DNA from: Thraustochytrium sp. TN22
Taxonomy: Eukaryota; Sar; Bigyra; Thraustochytrida; Thraustochytriidae
Length of the DNA stretch: 64,000 bases
Assembly: GCA_013306675.1 (NCBI GenBank)
Contig: JABLUY010000092.1
Span: forward strand, 1 to 64,000
Direction: 5' to 3'
The position numbers were made by a program, and so were the translations under genes. Below are positions 41,547-45,754 of the stretch, piece after piece. The notes below the pieces were generated by a model, which made no database searches, was not told the origin of the DNA, and worked only from the letters and a program-made list of their open reading frames with translations. How positions within the stretch are numbered: the stretch's first letter is position 1; each line of letters opens with the position of its first letter.

Positions 41547-44500
41547 TCATCTTCGGGTTCCTGACAGCCGGCCAATCGACTCGCCTGCCTCCTTCATCCT
41601 CAGAATGTGCACCATGCCGGACAAGTCACCGGCAACAAAGGTGTCTGCCTGCGAGATGCAGCACTCTGGGTATGTCGCATACTCCGTCGTGAAGCCAACT
41701 CGGCCGCCGCCAGGAATCACCTGAAGCTCGTTCGTCACTTCGACGGGGAGCGCGTGGCGCCCAGCGTCCGGAAGCGGCACGGGTAGGTCGACTCGTGCGT
41801 AGGTCTCCAGATCCCAGCGCAGCACTCTGCCGGCCACATCTTTGCTGGTGATGATGCCGCCGTCCAACGTCACGCTGATGACCCAGTCAGTGTGTCCTCG
41901 AAGTACCTGCAACTGGTCGCCCGTGTGAGCATTCCACACGCGCACGGTCTTATCGCCAGACCCAGAGATGACCCGATCGCCGTCCAGAGCCACGCTGTAA
42001 ACGTATGACGTGTGGCCTTGGAGCACACGCAGCGGGTGGCCAGTGAGAGCGTCCCACACGCAAATCGTCGTATCGCGAGACCCTGACACGATCCGATCGC
42101 CGTCCACAGCCACGCTATTGACACTTGACGTATGCCCCTCGAGCACGTGCAAGTGCTCGCCAGTTCCTGCGTCCCACACAAGCACCGTGCTGTCCTCAGA
42201 CCCAGACACGATCCAGTTTCCATGAAGGGCCACGCTGTTGACTCTCGCAGCATGCCCCTCAAGCACGTGCAGCTGGTCACCGGTGAGAATGTCCCACACT
42301 CGCACCGTCTTGTCGATAGATCCTGATACGATCCGGTCAGCTTTCAAAGCCACACAGAAGACTGCGTCCGTGTGCCTCTCAAGCACTTGCAGCAAATCCA
42401 CAGCACAAAGGTCCCAGACGCGCACAAGGTTGTCCGCGGACCCAGTCACAAGCCGGTCACCATCCAGAGCCACGCTGGAAATGGCCGAAGAGTGTCCCTT
42501 GAGCACGCCCAGCAAATCGCCGGTCTGCGCGTCCCACACGCGCACTGCCTTGTCTTCCGACCCAGACACGATGCGGTCGCCGCCCGCGACCACGCCGCTG
42601 ACGGGTGCCGTGTGCCCCTTGAGCACATGCAGTGGATTGCCGGTGCGAATGTTCCATACGCGAACTGTGTTGTCTATGGACCCAGACACGGCGTAGTTGC
42701 CGTCCAGATCCACGCTAGTGACATCGTCCAGGTGGCCCGTGAGCACTCGCAGCTGGCCGCCCTCGAGTGCGTGCCATACGCGCACCGTCTTGTCGTATGA
42801 CCCAGAAACGATCCGATCGCCGTCCAGTGCCACACTCGAGACGAGAAGCGAGTGCCCCCTGAGCACGTGCCGCTGGCAGCCGGTGCTCGCGTCCCACACG
42901 CGAATCGTGTTGTCTCGAGACCCAGACACGATCCAGTCGCCGTTCAGATCCACACTGAGGACCGAGGCCATGTGCCCCTCGAGCACGTGGAGGAGCTCGC
43001 TGGTGTGAATATCCCACACGCGGACCGTGTTGTCGCGCGACCCAGACACAACCCGGTCGCCATCCAAAGCCACGCAGAGGACCCAGGACGAATGCCCTTC
43101 GAGGACGGAGAGCTCATCGCCGGTGCGGGCGTCCCACACGCGCAACGTGTTATCCGAAGAGAGCACGTCACCCGATCCAGACACAAGGTAGTCGCCGTGT
43201 AGAGCCACGCTGTTGACATGAGCCCTGTGCCCCCTAAGTACGTGCAGAAGCGGATCGCGCGGGGCGGCAAGGGACTGCTTGACGGGGCATAGCCACGGTC
43301 TTTCCGGAGGTTGAAGTGTGCGTCGCAGCGGGTGCTTGGGGTCGACGATGCGCGCGAGGACCTGGCTGGCGAGCTGGTCCGGGTCGGTAACGGCGGCGAC
43401 CAAGGCCCTGCTGAGAAGTCGGGGCGTGTCGCTATGGGCATCGAGCTTGGCCCGTTGAGTGTCACGGAGGACGCTGCGGATGAAGGCGTGGCGACCGGCG
43501 GGCGATGATTCGGCCGAGAGAACTTTGTGAACCCACTTGAAGTTGTCGAGCCGAGCGCACGCCTCCTCGAGCTTGCCGGCCTCTGCGAGGTGGAAGACGA
43601 CGTGCTTGAGCGCGAACGGGCTCGGGTCGTCGAGGAGGGCCACGGCAAGCGTGGCGTGGCCATGGGTACGGCTGACAGCGAGCTCTTCGCCAGCTCGGCG
43701 TTTGTCTGTGATCAAGTCGGGCATGGACTTGTGGACGAAGCGCACGGAGGCGGTGTCAACATCGAATAGCTGCGCGGCACCAGTGAGCAGGTCTATCGTG
43801 TCGCAAACGCTGCATCCGAGGACCTTGGCCGCCACGCTTATCGGCAGCGGGTCACGCACGGCGCACATTGCGCCGAGCAGGTTGGAGTATGCCTCCTCAT
43901 CGCCTCGCAGCGAATTGTCGAGCAGGTTACGGAGCTCCTCCTCGTGCATGGCATTGAGGCTAGGGGGAGAGAGCCCAGCCAGCCGGGCAGCCGTGAGGTT
44001 GCTCACACCGCCATCCTCGAGTCTGCTGCGGAGCATGCTTCCGTACAAGAGGAGGCCGTCCGCGCTCTCCTCGATCTGCGGCAGGGCGGCCTCGAGCTCC
44101 ACATCATTGGCCATGAAGCCCTTGAGCATGGACCTAAGGTACTTGGCGACGTCGGCCTTGTTGCGCTCGCCGTCGAGGTCAAGGACGAGCGCGTTGGAGT
44201 GGAGCAGGTGCTCGCGGATCTCGTCCTCGGGCGTCGAGGCAACGAGGAGGCCGAGCCAGTCGGGCGTCTTTCCCCACTCTTGGCAGAGGATACGAAGAAG
44301 CGCGCCGCGCTGCTCGGGGTCGGCCTCGTCAAGCGCGTCGAGGGCGACGATGACACGCGTCGCAGGCGCAGCAATCTTGCTGCAGGGATCAGCGATGATG
44401 CGCTTGAACAGCGTGAGCGGGTCCTCGATGCTGCGCGTGGCAGCAACTAGCTCAGGTGAGTACTGGTCGTGTAGGCAGGGGACGACGGCGGCGAGCTGGT

Positions 44501-45479
44501 TGGCGATGCTGCGCAGGCAGGTGAGCACGTCTCTCGCTTGCGCATCGTGGTAGCGGAAGAAGTGGACGGCGCCAACTTGATGAGGCTGCGAGCGCGACAG
44601 GCGCTGAGAAACACGAGCCGAAAGGGACCGCCTGGGCTGTACAGGCGCGGCAAAGCCGAGCACACCGGCGCAGAGCGTGGCGATGGTGACGGTCTTGCCG
44701 AAGCCGTCGGGCCCGAGTATGGCCATGACGCGCGTGGCCCACGGGAGCGTCTTGGCCCAGTCGTCAACCTCGCCAAGGACCCAGTGCCGGGTCCCGGGCT
44801 CGTACTCGAGCGCCTTCTTGCGGCCCTCGAAGCGAAAGTCATCGCCCATTTGAAACGGAGCGGGCCTTGGCGCACCACCATGAGGCCGCACATTCGCGAT
44901 GACCGGCGCGTCGGCCTTGTCTAGAATCAGTCTCGCGAGCGCATGCATGGAGGCGCCGAAATCCGCGTCTGGTCGGAGACAACAAAGATTGGCCTCGCTC
45001 TGCAGGACCATGAGCACAATTCCTTCCCTGGCGCCCTCGGGCAGCGCGTCCTCCTCCATCACCATACCAAGCATCCTGTTGGGCTTTTGGAGGCCTGCGT
45101 GCACGAACTCTTTCCGGCAGTTGCTGAACTTCTCGCCATGGTTGACGGCATCGTAGTAAGCTTTGGTCACGCACGCCAAGAAGACACTGCACGCATCAAT
45201 CTGCTTCGCCGTCCCGCTGCCAAAGTCCGCGTACGACTTCTGCGTGTCGAGCACCATGGCGATGCCGAGGTCCTCCTCGTGCTCACCGAACCAGGCGACG
45301 ATCCGCTCGAGTCGCGCGACCACGTCGCGGCCCAGCTCGTCCAGGCCCGGCGTGTGCGACATGTAGACCGTCACGAGCTCGCCTGGCTTGGGCTTGGCCG
45401 TGGGTCCTGGCGCGGCTGCGGCCTCCGGGTCCGCTGCGCATGGCCGCCAGATGCGCGTGAGCACCGACTTCGCCAGCAT
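41547..45479 (-). CDS. TIR-NACHT-WD40 STAND protein (NLR-like sensor)
   Basis: 1,310 residues in one exon. Residues ~32-170 look like a TIR fold: LVTVYMSHTPG, an IDACSVFLACVTKAYYD strand-helix, and NCRKEF, whose Glu (about residue 124) sits where TIR NADases carry their catalytic Glu (C/WxxE). A NACHT-type P-loop ATPase follows: Walker A GPDGFGKT near residue 253, Walker B VIVALDALDEAD near 376, then helical winged-helix-like sequence to ~740. The C-terminal ~485 residues are twelve consecutive WD40 units plus a degenerate end (AGDLSGMVHIL), enough for two seven-bladed propellers. The layout is that of STAND/NLR regulators in fungi, animals and bacteria: propeller senses, NACHT oligomerises, TIR signals or degrades NAD+. 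The start at 45479 is preferred; the upstream frame (to 45806) reads through a CT microsatellite as Arg-Glu repeats. Confidence 0.88.
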   Translation of the reverse strand: MLAKSVLTRIWRPCAADPEAAAAPGPTAKPKPGELVTVYMSHTPGLDELGRDVVARLERIVAWFGEHEEDLGIAMVLDTQKSYADFGSGTAKQIDACSVFLACVTKAYYDAVNHGEKFSNCRKEFVHAGLQKPNRMLGMVMEEDALPEGAREGIVLMVLQSEANLCCLRPDADFGASMHALARLILDKADAPVIANVRPHGGAPRPAPFQMGDDFRFEGRKKALEYEPGTRHWVLGEVDDWAKTLPWATRVMAILGPDGFGKTVTIATLCAGVLGFAAPVQPRRSLSARVSQRLSRSQPHQVGAVHFFRYHDAQARDVLTCLRSIANQLAAVVPCLHDQYSPELVAATRSIEDPLTLFKRIIADPCSKIAAPATRVIVALDALDEADPEQRGALLRILCQEWGKTPDWLGLLVASTPEDEIREHLLHSNALVLDLDGERNKADVAKYLRSMLKGFMANDVELEAALPQIEESADGLLLYGSMLRSRLEDGGVSNLTAARLAGLSPPSLNAMHEEELRNLLDNSLRGDEEAYSNLLGAMCAVRDPLPISVAAKVLGCSVCDTIDLLTGAAQLFDVDTASVRFVHKSMPDLITDKRRAGEELAVSRTHGHATLAVALLDDPSPFALKHVVFHLAEAGKLEEACARLDNFKWVHKVLSAESSPAGRHAFIRSVLRDTQRAKLDAHSDTPRLLSRALVAAVTDPDQLASQVLARIVDPKHPLRRTLQPPERPWLCPVKQSLAAPRDPLLHVLRGHRAHVNSVALHGDYLVSGSGDVLSSDNTLRVWDARTGDELSVLEGHSSWVLCVALDGDRVVSGSRDNTVRVWDIHTSELLHVLEGHMASVLSVDLNGDWIVSGSRDNTIRVWDASTGCQRHVLRGHSLLVSSVALDGDRIVSGSYDKTVRVWHALEGGQLRVLTGHLDDVTSVDLDGNYAVSGSIDNTVRVWNIRTGNPLHVLKGHTAPVSGVVAGGDRIVSGSEDKAVRVWDAQTGDLLGVLKGHSSAISSVALDGDRLVTGSADNLVRVWDLCAVDLLQVLERHTDAVFCVALKADRIVSGSIDKTVRVWDILTGDQLHVLEGHAARVNSVALHGNWIVSGSEDSTVLVWDAGTGEHLHVLEGHTSSVNSVAVDGDRIVSGSRDTTICVWDALTGHPLRVLQGHTSYVYSVALDGDRVISGSGDKTVRVWNAHTGDQLQVLRGHTDWVISVTLDGGIITSKDVAGRVLRWDLETYARVDLPVPLPDAGRHALPVEVTNELQVIPGGGRVGFTTEYATYPECCISQADTFVAGDLSGMVHILRMKEAGESIGRLSGTRR
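41794..43252 (-). repeat. Twelve tandem WD40-coding units of about 120 bp
   Basis: Within the preceding gene. Units are almost all exactly 40 codons; the first carries a six-codon excess around VLSS. The core (S)VALDGDRIVSGS-DxTVRVWD recurs with high identity, while the residues just after GH (the propeller top-face loop) vary most. That pattern suggests ongoing unit duplication or conversion. Confidence 0.93.

Positions 45480-45717: not shown

Positions 45718-45754
<37 letters not shown>

Follow-up and report, generated by a model that had tools for sequence, protein, structure and literature searches.

A family of putative TIR-NACHT-WD40 receptors in a thraustochytrid, with homogenised WD40 repeats and excess replacement at four repeat positions

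NOD-like receptors (NLRs) with fast-evolving, homogenised repeats have been described in filamentous fungi, and fungal NLRs have been associated with filamentous growth and multicellularity (Dyrka et al. 2014, PMC4986451). For the WD40 repeat unit of Podospora, positive selection has been reported on codons 7, 9, 25 and 27, which form pairs flanking the conserved codons 8 and 26 (Paoletti et al. 2007, PMC1805685; repeated in PMC2873952), and a 2025 paper that numbers the unit differently gives positions 10, 11, 12, 14, 30, 32 and 39 (PMC12222747). Here we describe a gene of Thraustochytrium sp. TN22, designated P0001, and the family to which it belongs. P0001 lies in a window of 64,000 nucleotides (nt) that comprises positions 1 to 64,000 of contig JABLUY010000092.1 (assembly GCA_013306675.1), and a first-pass annotation of this window had proposed that it encodes an immune sensor with a TIR domain, a NACHT ATPase and a double WD40 propeller. 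The gene is a single minus-strand open reading frame (ORF) without internal stops, as that annotation had it (Table 1), and the order TIR, STAND (signal transduction ATPases with numerous domains) ATPase, WD40 is borne out by Pfam matches and family alignments. P0001 probably belongs to a large family, which is still radiating, of intracellular STAND/NLR-type receptors for non-self in a eukaryotic microbe, and we find this family, and the way in which its sensor evolves, of greater interest than P0001 by itself. The annotation had also proposed P0001 as a candidate for an undescribed defence or cell-death system. This does not hold for the architecture, which is present on a bacterial contig (L055, see below) and has been reported in Chondrus crispus (PMC7145615); what is new here is how the WD40 sensor evolves. 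Among the literature matches listed, which came from open-licence papers, there was no description of diversifying repeats in a protist family of TIR-NACHT-WD40 proteins, which does not prove that none has been reported.

Related architectures, on whose presence elsewhere in the genome the annotation had placed weight, are indeed found there. When the N-terminal 732 residues of P0001 are compared with the 37.9-Mb genome, 65 segments match; one of these is P0001 itself, and the others are at most 66% identical to it. The best 30 of these 65 segments were taken as loci L009–L038, and in this manuscript we use the term family loci to refer to L009–L037 (29 loci, P0001 included). Genome-wide, there are 46 matches to the Pfam model NPHP3_N and 128 to TIR_2 at E≤1, of which 114 are above the cut-off; the TIR_2 counts refer to matches rather than genes, and some genes and tandem copies are counted repeatedly. 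In a tree of 24 family NACHT regions and two bacterial ones, P0001 falls within a young radiation (L010–L018) in which several inner branches have low support, and an older clade (L028, L032 and L035–L037) is set apart with a support of 99. The N-terminal part of the protein is under purifying selection, as indicated by the ratio of nonsynonymous to synonymous rates (dN/dS) for the NACHT and TIR parts. For the NACHT part of P0001 this ratio is 0.37 against the nearest paralogue, L010, and 0.41–0.45 against the next nine; for the TIR domain it is 0.46 against L010, with a range of 0.35–0.75 across all 17 pairs, of which the distant ones are near saturation.

The WD40 arrays behave differently: they are homogenised within genes, and their units are exchanged between loci. 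Our repeat set contains 230 units from 28 genes, a unit being accepted if at least 9 of 14 consensus positions fit; degenerate units fell out of the set by this rule, and L034 and L038 contributed none. Similarity is higher among the units of one gene than between those of different genes, both at the amino acid level (identities of 0.645 within and 0.53 between genes; difference ≤0.010 in 200 label shuffles) and at the nucleotide level (0.733 and 0.624; difference ≤0.008 in 200 label shuffles). For 64.8 of the 230 units, the most similar other unit is found within the same gene; 100 label shuffles gave 7.6 such units on average and 15.4 at most. Some arrays are nearly uniform, namely those of L010, L014 and L022 (amino acid identities of 0.90, 0.93 and 0.93), with 15–16 DNA-identical pairs. 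Exchange is seen in a 120-nt unit that is identical in L011 and L016, and more generally in identical or near-identical units that occur in genes other than closest relatives. Turnover of an array can also outpace change in the remainder of its gene, since L022 and L023 have a dS of only 0.058 in the NACHT part, yet their closest unit partners differ at 7 or more of 120 nt. For L018 and L019, a unit-by-unit match between the two arrays persists.

Replacements within the unit are concentrated at a few columns. Rates were compared in two clades, chosen by eye on the basis of repeat type: clade A comprises 13 genes (P0001 included) with 108 distinct units, and clade B three genes with 20 units. 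Columns 8, 10 and 24 have the three highest replacement rates in clade A, in clade B and in P0001 alone (10 units). By our own mapping, in which the units are aligned on their common V and D, columns 8, 10, 24 and 26 appear to be equivalent to Podospora codons 7, 9, 25 and 27. The variable columns were ranked before the Podospora positions were consulted, and the four columns used in the tests below are the mapping of the published codons. At these four columns, the 230 units display 196 distinct combinations of residues.

The concentration was measured in the closest within-gene pairs of units, which differ at up to 12 of 120 nt (14 such pairs from nine genes, with some overlap in data between close-pair tests). 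Here, columns 8, 10, 24 and 26 hold 31.6 of the 52.3 nonsynonymous changes (60%), a share that is reached by five of the 91390 sets into which four columns can be combined, the present set being one of the five. Their share is 35% in clade A (3 of 91390 sets as good), 59% in clade B (6 of 91390) and 19% in the genes outside both clades (18 of 91390). In the same 14 pairs, the first and second positions of these four hot codons differ at 28 of 112 sites, as against 9 of 302 fourfold degenerate sites (Fisher p=1.2e-10), and the first and second positions of the other codons differ at 18 of 1008 sites. For the closest pairs, the rate at the hot codons is thus 8.4 times that at fourfold sites, and the factor is 2.4–3.0 at the loosest limit. 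The excess is present at all eight settings, within and between genes. Such site-specific diversification supports a role of the propeller as the sensor, to the extent that this can be read from sequence.

The TIR domain of P0001, taken by itself, scores below the Pfam cut-off (TIR_2, 15.9–16.5 bits; cut-off 28) and is missing from the 128 genome-wide matches; the assignment is carried by its relatives. Each of the 23 family TIRs in the alignment has a TIR_2 match at E≤0.1 (best 9e-15), and of the 24 family loci in which BLASTP detects a TIR, 17 exceed the cut-off in the whole-genome search; L010, L012, L013 and L017, which are near relatives of P0001, resemble it in that they are below the cut-off or unlisted. 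Against the PDB, the family TIR profile finds SEFIR, a relative of TIR (1e-6), the CRISPR-associated Cat1 TIR (0.002) and the RPS4 TIR (0.004). When it is aligned by hhalign with the TIR of a bacterial homologue (93% probability), the NCRKEF motif lies opposite VCRQEV, with Glu on Glu. Because of these matches to TIR_2, to TIR and SEFIR structures and to a bacterial TIR, we consider the assignment secure. The Cys-x-x-Glu glutamate noted in the first-pass annotation is indeed Glu124 of NCRKEF, and its column (E94 of alignment A1) is invariant (23/23), with the other TIRs 21–63% identical to that of P0001. Glu also occupies this position throughout a broader alignment of 30 rows, which adds to the 24 family loci five others and L023 in a second frame; all 24 family loci with a BLASTP-detected TIR have it and, by eye, so does L035. 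The invariance of this residue argues for the TIR as the effector, with Glu124 as a candidate NADase glutamate.

The ATPase has the intact Walker motifs expected of the annotated NACHT P-loop ATPase, but its best Pfam model is NPHP3_N, a member of the NACHT clan (Table 1), and the plain NACHT model remains under its cut-off (16.8 bits; cut-off 26.7). The domain appears better called NPHP3_N-type. The core of Walker B reads VALDALDEAD, and the Walker A pattern GxxGxGK[ST] is found in all 27 rows of the family alignment that have sequence there (30 rows in total). A profile of 24 family NACHT regions gave no significant match in the PDB (best E 0.066; Apaf-1, 0.078), and no viral relatives of the NACHT part were found among 204 pattern matches. 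The conserved motifs are consistent with a STAND-type switch, which would presumably act through oligomerisation, with the caveat of residue Thr416 that is discussed below.

P0001 matches the WD40 model PF00400 with E=3e-91. The array begins with a unit that has a 5-residue insertion, continues with ten units of exactly 40 amino acids, and ends with a degenerate unit. AlphaFold, run on the single sequence of the C-terminal part, produces 48 strands in 12 four-stranded blades, with a mean predicted local distance difference test score (pLDDT) of 75 for the best model and 66, 58, 42 and 42 for the other four, and a predicted template-modelling score (pTM) of 0.47; confidence falls in the middle of the array and over the last 83 residues. 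With this model as the query, the top Foldseek matches are single designed propellers (Tako8), and the tandem propellers Pwp2, Gemin5 and Apaf-1 are among the 50 matches listed, with template-modelling (TM) scores by query length of 0.28–0.56. Given these modest TM-scores, the two-propeller arrangement of the annotation is suggested rather than established. The C-terminal tail is possibly a degenerate extra blade.

Table 1. Features of P0001 in coordinates of the 64,000-nt window
Feature	Residues	Position	Strand	Basis
TIR-NACHT-WD40 gene (P0001)	1–1310	41547..45479	(-)	ORF of 1310 aa, no internal stops
TIR domain	~35–187	44919..45377	(-)	TIR_2 sub-threshold alone; relatives, PDB profile matches, bacterial TIR alignment
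Glu124 of Cys-x-x-Glu (NCRKEF), putative NADase catalytic glutamate	124	45108..45110	(-)	Invariant in alignment
NPHP3_N (NACHT-clan) ATPase	229–415	44235..44795	(-)	PF24883, 58.9 bits (cut-off 24.8)
Walker A, GPDGFGKT	256–263	44691..44714	(-)	Family alignment and translation
Walker B, RVIVALDALDEAD	375–387	44319..44357	(-)	Family alignment and translation
Thr416, at the sensor-1-like Arg position	416	44232..44234	(-)	Arg in 26/28 aligned rows
Helical/winged-helix region	417–735	43275..44231	(-)	Conserved in family (alignment A2); HTH_TANC1 behind NPHP3_N in bacterial L055
12 WD40 units	747–1231	41787..43241	(-)	Sequence; 48-strand model
C-terminal tail	1232–1310	41550..41786	(-)	Similar by eye in L015 and L018; pLDDT <50

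In the explanation that we favour, the WD40 array would fold into a beta-propeller (probably two in tandem), the top face of which would read a ligand. Homogenisation and exchange between loci would keep the scaffold uniform, and selection would diversify four residues per blade that face the ligand. Binding of the ligand would release the NPHP3_N/NACHT ATPase, leading to nucleotide exchange and oligomerisation, and the clustered TIRs would cleave NAD+ or make an NAD-derived signal, by which the cell would be stopped or killed, presumably in the service of defence or allorecognition.

Some observations weigh against this explanation. Column 7, which is outside the four, has the fourth-highest rate in both clades, with column 26 fifth in clade A and sixth in clade B, and in most sets it ranks no lower than column 26. 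For the P0001 array alone, the four columns hold just 23% of the nonsynonymous changes, a share matched by 151 of the 91390 sets. Within the four codons, the ratio of nonsynonymous to synonymous changes does not significantly exceed the neutral expectation when both units come from one gene (p=0.31, 0.33 and 0.10) and is mixed in pairs from any genes (p=0.05, 0.005 and 0.08); in our reading, it is weak because whole codons are replaced, so that some of the steps count as synonymous. GC bias may slow the fourfold sites, and near-identical arrays may be misassembled, as Illumina-based assemblies fail to reconstruct such arrays (PMC12222747). The four columns might be no more than those positions of a WD40 blade that are under the weakest constraint, turned over by neutral slippage without any function in recognition, and hotspot residues are indeed variable in highly repetitive WD40 proteins generally (PMC5587647). 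We regard this as very improbable, because relaxation alone gives at most the neutral rate, and the hot codons exceed the fourfold rate even at the loosest limit; GC-biased third positions could lower the fourfold rate, but hardly eightfold. A different question is what the repertoire would be directed at. It might serve to tell conspecific cells apart, in fusion or mating, as HET-D and HET-E do via HET-C, rather than to detect pathogens. The same repeat dynamics and the same four sites are found in the Podospora HNWD genes, which are known for incompatibility (PMC1805685, PMC2873952, PMC12222747), but the data on this organism contain no sign of cell fusion, and some two dozen TIR-bearing paralogues and more than 100 TIR matches suggest a broad repertoire. 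By analogy, the fungal precedent supports an anti-fusion role and the size of the repertoire perhaps favours pathogens, and we find allorecognition as the function somewhat unlikely.

The remaining objections concern P0001 itself and its effector. An arginine of the family's SRP motif, behind the third strand, which we take to be the sensor-1 arginine in both name and role, is kept in 26 of the 28 rows with sequence there, and the only exceptions are P0001, with Thr416, and L030. In addition, the P0001 repeats are old, with 58% amino acid identity within the array and no DNA-identical units, so that the homogenisation and unit exchange typical of HNWD genes, which characterise the family, are weak in this member. 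Since the arginine is missing, the activity of P0001 itself is less certain than that of the family, and it may not switch as its relatives would; together with the age of the repeats, this makes P0001 weak evidence of recent diversification. Being older, less homogenised and without the arginine, P0001 may be specialised or decaying. The family could accordingly work as proposed with P0001 as a decaying or regulatory copy (an inactive switch, a decoy, a brake or a partner). The sub-threshold TIR could be counted in favour of this, except that some of its near relatives fare no better, as described above. We consider such a copy distinctly unlikely, given that the frame of 1310 codons is uninterrupted, that Walker A, Walker B and Glu124 are intact, and that the dN/dS values against L010 are low in both the NACHT and the TIR part. 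For the effector, the alternative is that the TIR is a scaffold or signalling domain with no NADase activity. In animals, many TIRs are not known to act as enzymes. Of three TIR proteins assayed from an amoeba, two (TirB and TirD) showed no NAD+ processing (PMC13142454), and within the family, by eye, the TIR of L036 has Gln in place of the Glu. An in-frame TIR is absent from L030 and L031, two of the 29 loci; L026, in which the open stretch begins within the NACHT part, was left out of this count. The single-sequence AlphaFold model of the P0001 TIR is all-helical, without a TIR fold, and with a mean pLDDT of 41 it is uninformative either way. What stands against a non-enzymatic TIR is the glutamate, which is invariant among the 23 aligned family TIRs and aligned with the Glu of a bacterial TIR, and we judge the alternative to be unlikely.

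If the favoured explanation, with selection for ligand recognition at the four positions, is extended to the whole organism, it leads to a broader picture that we offer tentatively, as one that may or may not prove right. A single-celled flagellate would possess a self-renewing innate repertoire of at least some two dozen TIR-NACHT receptors, whose propeller blades would be shuffled both inside a locus and across loci, and would diversify at the four residues known from fungal allorecognition. This mechanism would either have arisen twice from a TIR-NACHT-WD40 ancestor of the bacterial type or be ancient in eukaryotic NLRs, and it would amount to a germline-encoded, fast-evolving suicide system against pathogens (or against fusion). 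A comparable TIR-effector system in what looks like a flagellated heterotrophic protist with more than 100 TIR matches would separate the mechanism from multicellularity. Protist cell-autonomous immunity would also become testable, with a candidate catalytic residue and with specificity residues predicted by position.

The setting of P0001 is that of a eukaryotic chromosome, as judged from the flanking and other window genes identified by Pfam, which gave matches for five of the eight ORFs scanned around it. A GatC gene and a protein-tyrosine phosphatase gene form its two flanks, and the window also encodes a DENN-ankyrin protein and a sulphur transporter. Bacterial contamination as the source of P0001 was considered and rejected, on the strength of the GatC and phosphatase flanks, the DENN-ankyrin gene on the contig and the paralogues on many contigs. 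A CT/GA dinucleotide run is located at window positions 45723–45751, which places it upstream of the probable start codon by some 245 bases. The genome contains 20 dynein heavy-chain matches, of which 15 are in open frames of 4000–5000 codons; because of these very long frames, it appears to be intron-poor. It also has seven Zn_clus matches, and no match to chlorophyll-binding proteins was found in it. DNA_pol_B_2 had no match here, nor in the control genomes. These counts are most simply consistent with a flagellated, intron-poor, heterotrophic protist. A fungus, in which HNWD-like genes would be expected, was also considered; the Zn_clus and dynein counts argue against a typical filamentous one, though less so against a zoosporic one.

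Several relatives and other TIR genes deserve a brief description. L030 and L031 are NACHT-WD40 relatives that might represent a sensor-only or helper class. In L028 (contig C242), a single frame is open over 2048 codons and contains two matches each to TIR_2 and NPHP3_N, and a 704-residue piece of L028 gives weak PADLOC matches to three ThsB models (best 3e-5) and to PDC-S66; a 704-residue piece of L010 gave no PADLOC match, and the sole PADLOC match of P0001 is to HEAT-ARM_XIII, inside the WD40 part. On contig C160, between positions 1247 and 4627, TIR_2 matches with the same internal TGA occur four times, every 1043 bases, as a tandem TIR-bearing unit. WD40 units of the family type are also present on contigs C36, C331, C205, C51, C32, C406, C80 and C179, where no family locus was fetched (150 of 496 candidates scored), and these are possibly fragments, orphan arrays or parts of other genes. 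In nine proteins scanned, the partners of the other TIRs of the genome are COR/Roc, ankyrin, ARM and ZZ domains. Five of these (L042, L043, L044, L045 and L048, on contigs C321, C217, C406, C288 and C38) combine COR-A with a C-terminal TIR, L045 having Roc as well, and in this Roc-COR-TIR set several TIR matches stand in a row on contig C288. The partner is ARM repeats in L039 (an LRRK2-type ARM model), a ZZ finger in L040 and ankyrin repeats in L041, and the long N-terminal region of L047 is ARM-like by eye, without a Pfam match.

A bacterial example of the architecture is L055, from a Burkholderiales metagenome-assembled genome (MAG), which is one of two relatives found among 443 pattern matches in a prokaryote collection. 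Pfam identifies TIR_2, NPHP3_N and a TANC1-like winged helix in it, and WD40 repeats can be recognised by eye behind them, so that the order is that of P0001, to which L055 is 31% identical in the best NACHT segment and 27% identical on a trimmed alignment. It differs in that its repeats, in the part seen, look diverged, and the contig ends inside the gene. L056, from an Acetobacteraceae MAG, has TIR_2 and NPHP3_N by Pfam in its first 341 residues and no WD40 by eye beyond them, and appears to carry another sensor.

Among more familiar proteins, SARM1 and the plant TNLs (TIR, nucleotide-binding and leucine-rich-repeat receptors) have a TIR with the conserved glutamate, which in TNLs is accompanied by a STAND ATPase. 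SARM1 has the order ARM-SAM-TIR. Plant TNLs have NB-ARC and leucine-rich repeats (LRRs), in place of which P0001 has NPHP3_N and WD40. Apaf-1, already mentioned among the Foldseek matches listed for the WD40 model, joins a STAND ATPase (NB-ARC) to tandem WD40 propellers, with a CARD effector and diverged repeats. An expanded eukaryotic set of the TIR-ATPase-WD40 type is known from Chondrus crispus, in which 58 of 61 nucleotide-binding (NB) genes have WD40 repeats and 23 of these 58 have a TIR (PMC7145615); this is a multicellular red alga, and the likeness of its set to the P0001 family lies in the reported architecture. The highly repetitive WD40 proteins of bacteria, fungi and protists resemble the family in their high internal identity and variable hotspots, but they are a class defined by repeats alone, and the terms NACHT and TIR do not occur in that paper's text (PMC5587647).

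The HNWD genes of Podospora anserina (HET-D, HET-E and HET-R) share with the P0001 family an N-terminal effector, a NACHT-type ATPase, homogenised WD40 units and exchange between loci (PMC1805685, PMC2873952, PMC12222747), and also the excess of replacements at four propeller positions that appear to be equivalent (PMC1805685, PMC2873952). They have a HET domain, possibly related to TIR (PMC4986451), rather than a canonical TIR, and belong to a filamentous fungus with heterokaryon fusion, in which they number 10 members. A Pfam scan of P0001 residues 1–207 to E=10 found TIR_2 and DUF5513 and no HET domain; P0001 is therefore not an HNWD gene. The HNWD units have 42 residues, those of the P0001 family 40. 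In behaviour, judged by analogy, the HNWD genes appear to be the closest known counterparts of this family.

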